DNA from: Luteimonas mephitis DSM 12574
GTDB lineage: Bacteria; Pseudomonadota; Gammaproteobacteria; Xanthomonadales; Xanthomonadaceae
Direction of reading: 5' to 3'
DNA length: 64,000 nt
NCBI RefSeq assembly: GCF_000422305.1
Contig: NZ_AULN01000017.1
Span: forward strand, 124,001 to 188,000
Shown: piece after piece, positions 7,691-54,982 of the stretch
Numbering within the stretch: the stretch's first letter is position 1
Layout: each line of letters starts with the position of its first letter
Notes under the pieces: model-generated
Told to the model about the DNA's origin: nothing
The model's database searches: none
Seen by the model: only the letters and a program-made list of their open reading frames with translations
Made by a program: the position numbers and the translations under genes

Positions 7691-7772
7691 GGCGGACCGG
7701 TGCAGGACGGGGAAGGCAAAGGATAACCGCAGCCTCCACGCGCCGGCGTCCCGGGGGCCCCGGAAACACGAA

Positions 7773-7790
7773 GACCCGCCGAAGCGGGTC
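7773..7790 (-). terminator. Hairpin, likely terminator of the alanine-rich lipoprotein gene
   Basis: A 7-bp stem GACCCGC / GCGGGTC with a CGAA tetraloop lies just past the stop codon of the lipoprotein gene at 7817. The following T-rich stretch on the minus strand is short, so it is moderately convincing. Confidence 0.55.
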
Positions 7791-7816
7791 CCGTGTGGAC
7801 TACCTTGAAGCGTGGA

Positions 7817-8209
7817 TCAGTTCTTGGCTTCGTCGGCAGCGGCCTTGGCCTTGTCGGCGACATCCTGCGCGGCGCTCTTGGTGGCGTCGGCGGCATCGGA
7901 GACAGCCTGGCTGGTGGCGTCGGCAGCATCGCTGGCGGCAGCCTGCGTTGCATCGGCGGCATTGCTGGCGGCAGCCTGCGTCGCGTCGGCGGCTTCCGAA
8001 GCGGCCTCGCCGGTGGCGGCGGCAGCGGCGTCGGCGCCTTCGGCGATCGCGTCACCGGCGTCGGACGCGGCGGCAGCGGCGGAGTCGCCGGCCTGTTCCA
8101 TCGCTGCCTGTGCTTCGGCGGCCTGTTCCTGCGCGGTAGGGGTTTCGTTCTTGCAGGCGGACAGCGCCAGCACGCTGGCGGCCAGCAGGACAACAATACG
8201 GGTGTTCAT
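7817..8209 (-). CDS. Alanine-rich lipoprotein, coiled/low-complexity (paralogue of the next gene)
   Basis: This 130-residue protein starts with a type II signal peptide: MNTRIVVLLAASVLALSAC, lipobox LSAC with C19 as the lipidated residue. The mature part is about half alanine with Asp, Glu, Ser and Thr. A loose repeat AADATQAAASNAADATQAAA recurs every 11 residues, the pattern of LEA-like or tail-fibre-like amphipathic helices. It is an outer-envelope lipoprotein of unknown role; stress or envelope-spacing functions are speculation. The neighbour at 8345-8686 is a diverged tandem paralogue with a terminator between, so they may be transcribed separately. Confidence 0.8.
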   Translation of the reverse strand: MNTRIVVLLAASVLALSACKNETPTAQEQAAEAQAAMEQAGDSAAAAASDAGDAIAEGADAAAAATGEAASEAADATQAAASNAADATQAAASDAADATSQAVSDAADATKSAAQDVADKAKAAADEAKN

Positions 8210-8285
8210 GGGTGTGATGCTCCTAAAAGGTGTCTGTTTCCAGAATCGGAAGCGCGCCTTTGCGACGACGCTCCCCCCCCTGACG

Positions 8286-8315
8286 AAAAAAGTCGCTGGC
8301 GAACCAGCGACTTTT
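8286..8315. terminator. Strong hairpin terminator between the two lipoprotein genes
   Basis: A near-perfect 13-bp stem (AAAAAGTCGCTGG / CCAGCGACTTTTC) with a CGAA loop and flanking A and T runs. It lies immediately after the stop codon of the 8345-8686 gene on the minus strand and upstream of the 7817-8209 gene. Confidence 0.85.
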
Positions 8316-8344
8316 CCCTTGTTGCAACGTAGCGTGGAACCCGA

Positions 8345-8686
8345 TTACTGCTTGGCTTCTTCCGCGGCGTCCTTGGCCTGTTCCGCGGCATCGGCAGCGG
8401 CGTCGGCGGAGTCGGCAGCAGCGTCGGCAGCGGCATCGGTCGTCGAAGCAGCAGCGTCGGCAGCGGAATCGCTGGCGGCAGCGGCGGCATCGGCGGCGGT
8501 GTCGGCGGCGTCCTGCGCAACGTCGGCGGTCGCGTCACCGGCAGCGGTGGCTTCGTCGGCGGCGGTCTGCGCGGCGGCAGCAGCGTCGGCTGCGTCGGCG
8601 GCCGAGTCTTCGGCCTGCTTCTGGTTGCTGCAGGCGGCCAGGGCAAAACCCAGGGCCAGTGCGAGCAGCGCCTTGTTGATCGTCAT
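8345..8686 (-). CDS. Alanine-rich lipoprotein (tandem paralogue)
   Basis: This 113-residue protein has a lipoprotein signal MTINKALLALALGFALAAC, with the lipobox cysteine at 19. An alanine-dominated helix with D/E/S/T/K follows and ends EQAKDAAEEAKQ. Composition and layout match the gene at 7817-8209, suggesting a tandem duplication followed by divergence. The predicted product is a long amphipathic rod tethered to a membrane. No catalytic motif is visible. A strong terminator follows it. It sits between the acetyltransferase and liuB genes and breaks up the leucine-degradation cluster. Confidence 0.8.
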   Translation of the reverse strand: MTINKALLALALGFALAACSNQKQAEDSAADAADAAAAAQTAADEATAAGDATADVAQDAADTAADAAAAASDSAADAAASTTDAAADAAADSADAAADAAEQAKDAAEEAKQ

Positions 8687-51899: not shown

Positions 51900-52199
51900 C
51901 CGGCATGGCAGGCGCTGGCATGCCGACCCCATGCCATGCGCCGGCCCCGCGTCGTTCCCGTTCAGGTCGGTGATCCGTTCCTCGCCGCATGTCGCCGGGC
52001 ATGGGCGCGGTCGCGGGCTTGTCCAGATGAGCTGCGTGCAACGGAAGCGGATATTCCTGTGGTAGTGTCCCACTGCCCCGAGGGCCGGTGGAGGGCTTGC
52101 ACGCCGCCCGGGGCAACTGCCGCATGAAAGCTGCGTCGCCGCCGGATCGCGGGCGCGCGATGACCGATGCCTGATGATGGGTTCCCAGGGGGAAATGAC

Positions 52200-52418
52200 A
52201 TGTCGAAACTGCTCGATCTGATGAGGAAGCTTGGCAGCGATGCCGCGCTGGCGGAGGAGTACGGGAAGGATCCGGAGGCGGTCTTGCGTCGTGCCGGCGT
52301 GACCGACGAGGAGCGCAGGGCGATGCTGGAGAGTGATTACGCGGCGGTCGGGAAACTCACCGGGCTCGCGGAAGGGCAGTACGCCACCAACCACACCATC
52401 AAGGCGTACGACAAGTAG
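52200..52418 (+). CDS. Putative borosin RiPP precursor peptide (SonA-like)
   Basis: This 72-residue protein starts at ATG 52200 behind an AGGGGGA site. From memory of Shewanella SonA, it aligns over its whole length: MSxLxDL, LGSDAALAEEY, KDPEAVLRRAGVTDEE, then a short D..AVGKLTG helix (residues 1-55, the borosin-binding domain). A C-terminal tail GLAEGQYATNHTIKAYDK follows, which would be the core that receives backbone N-methyl groups. The fused methyltransferase gene starts 29 bp downstream. The split arrangement (precursor separate from enzyme) is the SonA/SonM type. Core positions and any follower cleavage are unproved. An in-frame ATG at 52167 is less likely. Confidence 0.82.
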   Translation: MSKLLDLMRKLGSDAALAEEYGKDPEAVLRRAGVTDEERRAMLESDYAAVGKLTGLAEGQYATNHTIKAYDK

Positions 52419-52447
52419 CGCCGGCCTCCGTCGCCAGGTACCTGCGC

Positions 52448-54982
52448 ATGTTCCGGCTGGTCGCGATCGCGTTGCTGTGGCTCGCGTTCGCCTGCGCTCC
52501 CGCGTTCGCGGTCGATTCGTCGCCTGCGAACGCGGCGCTGGAGGCGAAGGTCCAGGAGATCGAGCAGCTCGCGGTCACCGAGCACTGGAGCAAGTCGGAT
52601 GCCGCGATTGCCGCGCTGGCGCAGCAACGCAGTGCGCTGACGCCGCTGCAGCGGCAGCGCATCGAGTTCATCAGCCTGCGCAATCGCGCCCTTGCCGGCG
52701 ACCAGCCAGCGGCGCTGAAGGGCCTGGCCGAGCTGTTGAAGCAGGACATGCCGGTGCCTCTGCGCGTGCGCATCTACGCCACGGCCACCGGCGTCGCCGC
52801 CAACCTCGAGGATTGGCCGCTGGCGTTCGCGTGGCTCAACGAGGGCCTGAAGTACCTGCACGACAGCCCCGCGGAATCGGCCAGGCTGCTCGGGGCCGCC
52901 AGCTACCTGCACACGCTGGTCGGAGAAACCGGGCGCGCACGGGAGCTGGCGCTGCAGGCGCTGCACATCGTCGAAACCGGGGACGATCCGCGCGCGCTGT
53001 GCCTGGCGCTGAGCGACGTGGCGCTGGCCGAGGATCACGCCAGCCATTTCCGCGAGGCGGAGAAATGGCGCCACCGCCAGATCGAAGCCTGCGTCCGCGC
53101 CGGGGATCCGGTCTTCGTCGCCAACGGCAAGTACGGCGTGGGCAAGATGGCTGCGGCCCAGGGGCACCACGCCGAAGCGCTGAAGTGGGGGCGCGAGGCG
53201 CTCGCCGAGTTCGAGGCGGTGGGCTATGCGGTCGGTGCGCACAGCGCGAAGCTCGTGATCGCCGAAAGCCTGATTGCCTCGAACCGGCAGCTCGACCAGG
53301 CCCAGGCGATGCTGGTCGACACGCTCCGGTACTACAAGGAGCAGAAGTCCGACCTGGCCGTCGCCGAGACCGAGCGGTTGCTTGCCAGGCTCGCCGAAAA
53401 GCGCGGCGACATCGCTGCGGCGCTGCTGCACACCAAGCGGGCGATGGAAGTGTCCGGAGCCGTCGAGGTCGTCGCGCGCGAGCGTCGACTGGCTTACCTG
53501 CAGGTGCAGTTCGACACGAAGTTGAAGGAACAGCAGATCGCGTTGCTGGAGTCGGAGAAGCAGGTCGCCGCCCTGCAGGTCACCGCGAACAAGCGCCGGC
53601 AATGGCTGCTGGCCATCGGCATGGCCGGGTTGCTGGTCACCGCCATCCTGCTGCTGGTGCTGCTGCGGCGATCGTTCCGCCAGCGCCGCCGCTACCGCTG
53701 GCTGTCCGAGCACGACAGCCTGACCCGCCTGCTCAACTACCAGCAGGTGCGCAAGCTTGGCGAGCAGGCATTCGCGCGCGCGCGCGGTACCGGGCGGCCG
53801 TTCACCGCGATCGTCGCCGACATCGATCTGTTCAAGCAGGTCAACGACCGCCATGGCCACGCGGCCGGCGACGAGGCATTGCGCAGCCTTGCCGGCTGGA
53901 TCAGCGAAACGGTGGGCGCGAGCGGCGTCGCCGGGCGCAGCGGTGGCGACGAGTTCACGATCCTGCTCGAAGCCGATGCGGCGGAAGCCGAGGCGATGCT
54001 GCAGCGCCTGCGCGGCCGGATCGAGCCGATCACGGTGTTCGGGCAGACCTTCCGGTTCAACATCAGCTCCGGGGTCTGCCAGGCCAACGGGCACGCCGAC
54101 ACGCTGGAGCAGCTGATCCACGAGGCCGACCAGGCCCTGTACCGGGCCAAGAGCGAAGGGCGCGACCGCATCGTCCGCGCCGGCGACGCGCCCGCCGAAC
54201 CGGCGCCGGCCGCCGGACTGGTGGTCGTCGGCAGCGGCATCCAGTTCGGCCGCCATGCCAGCGAGCGCTGCCTGTCGGAGATCCGCGAGGCCGAGGTGGT
54301 GTTCTGCCTGGCCGACGCGTTTGCGCTGGCGATGATCCACGACTTCCGGCCCGACGTGATCAACCTCGGCGTGCATTACGCGCCGGGCAAGGACCGGCGC
54401 CAGACCTATCGCGAGATCGACGAGGCGATCATGGCGCAGGTCCGCGCTGGCAAGCGGGTCTGCGCGGTGTTCTACGGCCATCCGGGCGTGTTTGCCGACG
54501 TGCCGCACGCGGTGGTGCGCAAGGCGCGCGCGGAAGGCATCCCGGCGCGCATGGAACCGGGTATTTCCGCCGAGGCGTGCCTGTATGCCGACCTGGGCAT
54601 CGATCCGGGCCATCGCGGCGTGCAGTCGATGGAGGCGACCCATTTCATGGTCTACGACCGCCAGCCCGACCCCGCCGGCCTGGTGCTGCTGTGGCAGGTG
54701 GCGCTGTCCGGCGACCTGGCCTGCAGCCGCCTGCACGCCGAGCGCGAAGGGCTGCAGGCGCTGGTCGACAAGCTGCTGCGCTGGTACCCGCCCGACCACG
54801 AGGTCATCCTCTACGAGGCCGCGCGGCTGCCGATCGAAACCCCGCGCGCGGAGCGTCTCGCGCTGCGCGACCTGCCCTCGGCGCACTACGAGGAATACAC
54901 CACCCTCGTGATCCCGGCGTTGGGCGAACTGCGCGACGATCCGGATTGCGCGCGCGAAGCGGCGAGTCCCGGGAAGGCCTGA
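52448..54982 (+). CDS. TPR-GGDEF sensor fused to a borosin alpha-N-methyltransferase
   Basis: This 844-residue protein has a signal peptide (1-21), a periplasmic TPR-rich helical region (~30-350), a coiled coil (355-384), a membrane helix (386-407) and a cytosolic GGDEF domain (~421-577). RSGGDEF is at 497-503, intact for diguanylate cyclase; HDSLTRLLN is present and the RxxD inhibitory site is absent. The borosin methyltransferase follows (~590-830): VVGSGIQF SAM loop, Y644, R650, Y654 and Y676 at spacings matching Y66, R72, Y76 and Y98 of OphMA. Block identity to SonM is strong (VFYGHPGVFADVPHAV, MEPGISAEACLYADLGIDPG, PDHEVILYEAARLPIETPRAE). It probably N-methylates the peptide encoded upstream; coupling to c-di-GMP or a periplasmic signal is inferred. 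Confidence 0.9.
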   Translation: MFRLVAIALLWLAFACAPAFAVDSSPANAALEAKVQEIEQLAVTEHWSKSDAAIAALAQQRSALTPLQRQRIEFISLRNRALAGDQPAALKGLAELLKQDMPVPLRVRIYATATGVAANLEDWPLAFAWLNEGLKYLHDSPAESARLLGAASYLHTLVGETGRARELALQALHIVETGDDPRALCLALSDVALAEDHASHFREAEKWRHRQIEACVRAGDPVFVANGKYGVGKMAAAQGHHAEALKWGREALAEFEAVGYAVGAHSAKLVIAESLIASNRQLDQAQAMLVDTLRYYKEQKSDLAVAETERLLARLAEKRGDIAAALLHTKRAMEVSGAVEVVARERRLAYLQVQFDTKLKEQQIALLESEKQVAALQVTANKRRQWLLAIGMAGLLVTAILLLVLLRRSFRQRRRYRWLSEHDSLTRLLNYQQVRKLGEQAFARARGTGRPFTAIVADIDLFKQVNDRHGHAAGDEALRSLAGWISETVGASGVAGRSGGDEFTILLEADAAEAEAMLQRLRGRIEPITVFGQTFRFNISSGVCQANGHADTLEQLIHEADQALYRAKSEGRDRIVRAGDAPAEPAPAAGLVVVGSGIQFGRHASERCLSEIREAEVVFCLADAFALAMIHDFRPDVINLGVHYAPGKDRRQTYREIDEAIMAQVRAGKRVCAVFYGHPGVFADVPHAVVRKARAEGIPARMEPGISAEACLYADLGIDPGHRGVQSMEATHFMVYDRQPDPAGLVLLWQVALSGDLACSRLHAEREGLQALVDKLLRWYPPDHEVILYEAARLPIETPRAERLALRDLPSAHYEEYTTLVIPALGELRDDPDCAREAASPGKA

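Follow-up and report, generated by a model that had tools for sequence, protein, structure and literature searches.

Among described systems, the one closest to the locus reported here is SonM/SonA of Shewanella oneidensis, which is a split borosin of type IV (PMC8429565; PDB 7LTC). The precursor SonA is separate from the methylase SonM and has a leader and a C-terminal core. OphMA and the other fungal borosins have a homologous methylase fold but carry the core inside the methylase chain, according to PMC8429565; the same paper states that no split-borosin pathway has yet been tied to a final natural product. PMC11285071 refers to borosin types IV-X of Imani et al., and the Figure 1 legend of PMC11395268 (2024) defines GGDEF as a domain in a drawing of borosin types. 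The present locus lies in a 64,000-nucleotide stretch of Luteimonas mephitis DSM 12574 (contig NZ_AULN01000017.1, positions 124,001 to 188,000), hereafter the window. It resembles SonM/SonA in its separate precursor with leader and core and in its catalytic residues, but the methylase is fused to a TPR-GGDEF sensor in a single protein. In SonM/SonA the sensor partner is a TPR-GGDEF frame directly after SonA, and three separate genes are ordered methylase, precursor, TPR-GGDEF. The C-termini also differ (SYLVISHGNGD in SonA versus ATNHTIKAYDK in the window precursor). The favoured reading, with a probability of roughly 0.45, is that the N-methylated peptide is the input to a periplasmic TPR receptor which drives a cyclic di-GMP or phosphorelay output, and that the window unites receptor and maturase in one protein as a split-borosin peptide-signalling unit.

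The first-pass annotation had described a split borosin pair, in which a 72-residue SonA-like peptide precedes an 844-residue protein by 29 bp. The coordinates agree with this (29 nt from the precursor stop to the fusion ATG), and the closest PDB match of the precursor is SonA (phmmer, expectation value (E) 1.6e-8). The longest frame over the precursor starts at 52167 and has 83 residues. The nonsynonymous rate (dN) of the precursor is lower than the synonymous rate (dS) against 6/6 relatives, for example 0.025 against 0.408. The leader also has a weak Pfam match to PF07746 (LigA), which is below the cut-off. In the presumed core, placed by analogy with SonA, Y70 and I or V67 are kept in 21/21 precursors of fused loci, A62 in 20/21 and N64 in 19/21.

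The C-terminal domain of the 844-residue protein had been assigned to the SonM type of N-methyltransferase. Its closest PDB match is SonM (E about 4e-71). Fungal enzymes of the OphMA type come next, with values from about 1e-38 to 1e-34, and no tetrapyrrole methylase scores better than 2e-4. SonM residues Y58, R67, R68, Y71, Y93 and F99 correspond to window Y644, R650, R651, Y654, Y676 and F682, which are invariant in 21/21 fused proteins and include the two tyrosines singled out earlier (Y654 and Y676). SonM I234 is not conserved (Y817 in the window). The locus therefore has the parts of a split borosin: a separate precursor with a SonA-like leader and a C-terminal core, and an adjoining SonM-homologous methylase with the active-site Tyr and Arg residues. 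It is extremely improbable that the protein joins a cyclase to a corrin or porphyrin methylase and that the small frame upstream is incidental. The Pfam match is PF00590 (TP_methylase, residues 591-792, E 2.8e-19), but SonM itself matches PF00590 (E 7.8e-21) and TP_methylase is a superfamily name; therefore, this match is no argument for a corrin methylase. Among the solved relatives, the E-values of the borosins are lower by over 60 orders of magnitude, and neither the conserved SonA-like precursor nor the invariant SonM catalytic residues agree with that alternative. Models of tetrapyrrole methylases of cobalamin and siroheme synthesis in NCBIfam score far under their cut-offs (e.g. TIGR01469, 16.8 vs 185 bits). 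A corrin or porphyrin methylase was ruled out by the SonM-best PDB match, the membership of SonM in PF00590 and the low NCBIfam scores, and the profile searches place the domain with the borosins. The identity of the borosin methylase and its precursor is close to certain.

A sensor-type partner is a recurrent feature of borosin methylase loci. The sample consists of 140 regions fetched around the methylase, which were chosen and not random, and some genomes give two. The family survey gave 21 fused loci and 73 unfused methylase rows, of which set A (L038-L097; 60 regions) takes in 18 and 42, respectively. Sets B (L238-L257) and E (L342-L361) have 20 regions each from one pool; set E was picked after the first non-GGDEF partners appeared, mostly from those families. 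Set C (L258-L277) has 19 regions from one search and one from another, and set D (L297-L316) has 18 plus L315 and L316. A gene was counted as next to the methylase if its same-strand frame starts no more than 1.8 kb after it or ends within about 0.4 kb before it. By this definition, a sensor-type partner is fused or adjacent in 136/140 loci (20 fused, 97 with GGDEF, 11 with a histidine kinase and 8 with TPR only). GGDEF partners were found in 40/42 unfused loci of set A, 13/20 of set B, 17/20 of set C (plus 2 fused), 19/20 of set D and 8/20 of set E. The histidine kinases combine TPR with HisKA/HATPase, and receiver and Hpt domains are optional additions (L252, L253, L254, L255, L257, L357-L361); L251 is a cut kinase with no TPR detected. 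The TPR-only proteins have a signal-peptide-like start (L246, L343, L345, L346, L350, L352, L354, L356). Pfam matches TPR in 10/11 kinases (the miss is L251) and 8/8 TPR-only proteins (L345 and L350 below the cut-off). At E <= 0.01 it does so in 9/11 GGDEF partners scanned, several below the cut-off (L342, L348, L355, L258, L238, L243, L244, L297 and L311; L071 and L275 are the misses). The idea that GGDEF is always present is ruled out, since kinases and TPR-only proteins take its place. Judging from these sequences, the constant partner appears, mostly and where checked, to be a TPR domain behind a signal peptide, with a varying output domain. The four loci with no such partner are L269 (a contig end), L073, L315 and L072. 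Methylase, precursor and sensor are very probably one functional unit.

The original SonM/SonA locus appears to be in the sample. In L297, SonM is identical over 243 residues and SonA agrees over the 57 residues compared, so this genome is taken to be S. oneidensis. Its 596-residue TPR-GGDEF frame begins at the base right after the SonA stop. The window genome itself has a second, unfused system about 18 kb past the window (G000:C6:205849-208866; L071), with the order methylase, 97-residue SonA-like precursor with an acidic tail, and 613-residue GGDEF protein. The last is related (27%) to residues 4-586 of the window protein and matches its N-terminal 400 residues at 7e-13. The order methylase, precursor, GGDEF recurs among the unfused regions. 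The precursor C-termini fall into three classes that track the methylase and cyclase clades: TIKAYD-like ends (fused and precursor-first loci), SonA-like ends (Shewanella-type) and, in most others, an acidic tail preceded by hydrophobic residues.

The fusion is conserved in the family. At E <= 1e-60, 90/297 same-family genomes have a match. The first-pass annotation had suggested counting the genomes with the TPR-GGDEF-borosin order; by the matched ranges, these are 21/297, two of them cut or split (G049, G290). A fusion unique to the window genome is thereby ruled out. In the remaining 69 genomes the matching gene is an unfused methylase; for G154 the match comes from neighbouring genes. Among the 52 genomes of the genus, 20 have the fusion, 2 only the TPR-GGDEF part, 10 only an unfused methylase and 20 no match at this threshold. 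The named carriers include Luteimonas and Pseudoxanthomonas species, a Dokdonella metagenome-assembled genome (MAG) and other MAGs, and two genomes of another family of the same order have distant fusions (49-50%). Absence of the peptide upstream of homologous fusions had been named as grounds for doubt. A SonA-like precursor is directly upstream in 20/21 fused loci and the sole miss begins at a contig end; therefore, the pairing is not due to chance. A tree of 121 methylase domains accounts for the 21 fused ones by a single change (Shimodaira-Hasegawa-like approximate likelihood ratio test 90, quick method), and the fused cyclases are one group in the cyclase tree (support 99). In both trees the fusion has a single origin. 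Its nearest rows in the methylase tree are mostly loci ordered precursor, TPR-GGDEF, methylase, and the fusion is probably derived from such neighbours. Where the cyclase is just upstream of the methylase, the two frames overlap by 4 bp in 7/20 loci.

Two lineages have lost the methylase domain. In Luteimonas terricola (L110:4859-6842), about residues 590-803, which make up the methylase, are lost in frame and TPR-GGDEF is retained. The middle of its precursor leader is also deleted in frame, and the core ATNHTIRAYD is retained. Genome G1449, probably the same species, has the same deletion state and a separate unfused methylase elsewhere. In G1444 (L330), the methylase domain is gone, no precursor is detectable and the TPR-GGDEF part is retained. 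Methylase domain and precursor thus decay together while the sensor stays. This pattern, seen in two cases only, is compatible with a sensor that takes a peptide as input and is also useful by itself.

The earlier claim of a fusion to TPR, one membrane helix and an intact GGDEF domain is borne out by Pfam, the sequence and an AlphaFold2 model (Table 1). The signal peptide and the membrane helix were assigned by eye with no predictor, and the TPR domain is taken to be periplasmic. The GGDEF domain (PF00990, residues 421-574, E 1.3e-34) has the intact domain and motif of a diguanylate cyclase, and GG[D/E]EF is intact in 21/21 fused proteins. No RxxD inhibitory site was seen just upstream of the motif in the window protein. 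The TPR part has one match (E 8e-4), which is below the Pfam cut-off. In the whole-protein model (mean predicted local distance difference test score (pLDDT) 90, predicted template modelling score (pTM) 0.53), a helical TPR stack is followed by a single long helix (322-421) that runs through the membrane segment, then by the GGDEF domain and the methylase. Its best Foldseek match is SonM (7ltc) with a root-mean-square deviation near 15; therefore, the model is not relied on for exactly where the halves of the methylase lie.

TPR residues 22-371 modelled alone gave a mean pLDDT of 94.8 and a pTM of 0.91. The best Foldseek match of this model is a Rap protein with pheromone (4gyo, E 1e-7), and LGN with partners and phage Rap with pheromones are matched as well. 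VIA-align places APPBP2 and the anaphase-promoting complex (APC/C) on top (Z 27-30), then Rap (about 25), MalT and NprR, with Rap/NprR chains at Z 19-25. Rap and NprR are thus among the best matches, with eukaryotic TPR proteins at equal or better scores. The predicted fold would fit a peptide-binding TPR, which is no proof of one. The pair Cys185/Cys215 is present in 45/45 aligned TPR domains and is perhaps a disulfide. A Cys lies within 3 columns of both places in 92/92 linked unfused cyclases with enough TPR sequence. The pair was rejected as a hallmark of borosin-linked cyclases, since the same holds for 17/22 other GGDEF proteins of the same regions.

Table 1. Features of the split-borosin locus, in window positions.
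Feature	Position	Strand	Basis
Split-borosin precursor, SonA-like, 72 residues	52200..52418	+	ATG 52200, stop 52418; SonA match; upstream of fused homologues
Leader / borosin-binding domain, residues 1-57	52200..52370	+	Aligned with SonA 1-57
Presumed core, residues 60-72 (QYATNHTIKAYDK)	52377..52415	+	Placed by analogy with SonA L63/I65
Fused TPR-GGDEF-borosin N-methyltransferase, 844 residues	52448..54982	+	ATG 52448, stop 54982; Pfam, PDB search, alignment, AlphaFold2
Signal peptide-like N-terminus, residues 1-21	52448..52510	+	Read from sequence; helix 2-21 in AlphaFold2 model
TPR domain, residues 22-345, taken as periplasmic, with Cys185 and Cys215	52511..53482	+	Model, fold matches, aligned Cys pair
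Single transmembrane segment, about residues 386-408	53603..53671	+	Hydrophobic stretch WLLAIGMAGLLVTAILLLVLL, inside model helix 322-421
GGDEF diguanylate cyclase domain, residues 418-576	53699..54175	+	PF00990; SGGDEF motif at 53939-53956
Borosin alpha-N-methyltransferase domain, residues 586-830	54203..54937	+	SonM match, catalytic residues, Foldseek

RRNPP receptors are cytoplasmic proteins of Gram-positives or their phages. They are defined by a cytoplasmic TPR protein with a DNA-binding or Rap phosphatase part and by an exported precursor with a signal peptide. The folds of Rap-CSF (4GYO), Rap F (4I9C) and NprR (4GPK) are like the window TPR model over about 300-316 residues. The window system falls outside the full definition, since the receptor has a signal peptide-like start, a membrane helix and a GGDEF output (a kinase in some relatives), the precursor has no signal peptide, and the candidate ligand would be backbone-methylated.

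In the proposed mechanism, the precursor leader would dock on the methylase, which would then N-methylate the backbone of the C-terminal core. The methylated peptide, cleaved or not, would enter the periplasm; no route for this is visible at the locus. There the TPR domain would bind it in the way that a Rap-type TPR binds its pheromone, and the unbroken helix 322-421 would relay the change to the GGDEF dimer and alter cyclic di-GMP. The fusion would hold methylase and receptor at equal numbers, and a methylase that is itself a homodimer would go well with the dimeric GGDEF domain. This peptide-receptor reading is based on the parts being kept together across the sampled Gammaproteobacteria, with the TPR mostly constant while the output changes. 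A ligand role and export of the peptide are inferred, and the chance that the TPR domain is what the peptide binds is put at a little under even. A broader proposal is more tentative still: in Gram-negatives, ribosomal peptides made protease-resistant by backbone N-methylation may serve as ligands for a family of periplasmic Rap-like TPR receptors, whose output can be swapped between cyclic di-GMP, a phosphorelay and a TPR binding protein that stands free. SonM/SonA would be one such system, and the window would be a receptor and its ligand-maturing enzyme in a single protein.

Several results weigh against a peptide ligand. By eye, the precursor sequence has no signal peptide, and no exporter or peptidase was noticed at the window locus; therefore, the meeting of a cytoplasmic product with a periplasmic domain is unexplained. 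TPR proteins bind many things, and the top five VIA-align rows are APPBP2 and APC/C, above Rap. The motif GG[D/E]EF is missing from 5/93 unfused GGDEF frames. L. terricola retains the core and the cyclase after the loss of the fused methylase domain, so methylation by that domain may not be needed or the unit may be decaying. Covariation of the core with the TPR domain, after control for leader, methylase and GGDEF, is 0.27 in the acidic-tail set and 0.53 in the Shewanella set, but is gone in the fused clade (0.07) and in the fused plus nearest loci (-0.05). The leader also covaries with the TPR domain (0.16 to 0.48); therefore, rate effects may be behind the core signal. The covariation was suggestive before the controls and mixed after them, and is not used as support. 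These tests left out L095, in which the fusion is split over two frames; the L250 cyclase is also split.

The lack of a signal peptide on the precursor is also in line with coupling in the cytoplasm. In that case, the occupancy of the methylase by precursor or S-adenosylmethionine would set the geometry of the GGDEF dimer, cyclic di-GMP would report the methylation state, and the TPR domain would sense something else. The methylase and GGDEF domains are adjacent in the fused chain, SonM is a homodimer (PMC8429565), and the overlap of cyclase and methylase frames suggests matched amounts. However, a specific methylase-GGDEF contact is not constant, since the partner is a signal-peptide TPR-only protein in which no output domain was found in 8 loci and a histidine kinase in 11, and this coupling is considered unlikely. 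Passive linkage is improbable. On this view, what the methylase and precursor do has nothing to do with the sensor, which would simply be a handy neighbour in the operon that was later fused. Other TPR-GGDEF genes also lie apart or in tandem, as passive linkage would allow, but the sensor-type partner recurs across several families and differing gene orders. A random gene is expected to have GGDEF within 2 kb downstream on the same strand in about 0.5% of cases (own estimate from about 16 GGDEF matches in 3.4 Mb, with no run control).

The first-pass annotation had suggested that the fusion makes the product membrane-localised or its production signal-dependent. This survives as one of several readings, in which the sensor controls or localises the production of an ordinary bioactive borosin and the cyclase is a regulator and not a receiver; the wider gene order points rather to a peptide acting on the sensor. 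The operon-like order with short gaps is consistent with regulated production, and L072 has a C39 peptidase ABC exporter in place of the sensor. A GNAT acetyltransferase-like gene, possibly an extra tailoring step in the methylase-first clade, lies upstream of the methylase in 31/52 loci of the methylase-first group, in which acidic tails predominate, and the view that there is no further tailoring gene was dropped on this account. It is found in 0/20 fused, 0/19 precursor-first and 0/18 Shewanella-type loci, however, and the two lineages described above, which lack the methylase domain as well as all or the middle of the precursor, still have TPR-GGDEF. Regulated production therefore has a low probability, and the peptide ligand is retained as the favoured reading.

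The architecture is real, conserved and of single origin, but the claim that it is new has to be reduced. GGDEF is already named in the legend of PMC11395268, whose wording mentions neither a fused state nor a TPR part, and the fusion is shared by the other family genomes counted above. The fusion probably belongs to a borosin type that is already in print. GGDEF does not occur in the main text of PMC8429565. Apart from that legend, the full-text literature searched had nothing that connects borosins with cyclic di-GMP or TPR receptors (PMC12487129 is unrelated). Nor did the searches turn up the generalisation to a TPR sensor partner that recurs while its output changes; it may still be published, and priority is not claimable. 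What goes beyond the earlier listing of architectures is the near-constant sensor-type partner, including that of the original SonM/SonA locus. It gives split borosins a testable role, including SonA in the tractable strain MR-1 of S. oneidensis, and connects N-methylation of a peptide backbone with signalling by cyclic di-GMP and by two-component systems.

Some further observations concern the surrounding genes. Five window neighbours (an outer membrane protein, a RIO kinase, a pseudouridine synthase-like protein, a copper-binding protein and a 197-residue frame) had no match at 1e-5 across 20 fused regions. The C39 peptidase ABC transporter of L072 (7037-9181), which adjoins the borosin methylase, is a possible export route. 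L315:3443-6964 encodes a 1174-residue protein with a distant borosin-like methylase at its N-terminus and a membrane-like segment near its C-terminus. Examples of the GNAT-like gene are L002:667-1467, L251, L348, L353, L355 and L072. In L342 (6439-8016), Pfam identifies an amidohydrolase-like frame of 526 residues after the methylase, and L344, L347 and L351 have similar frames, judged by length and start. Two fused loci have additional copies: the Dokdonella MAG (L105, 4388-10465) has two tandem precursor and fusion units, and L100 has an extra 259-residue methylase-like frame (7705-8484) adjoining the fused unit.

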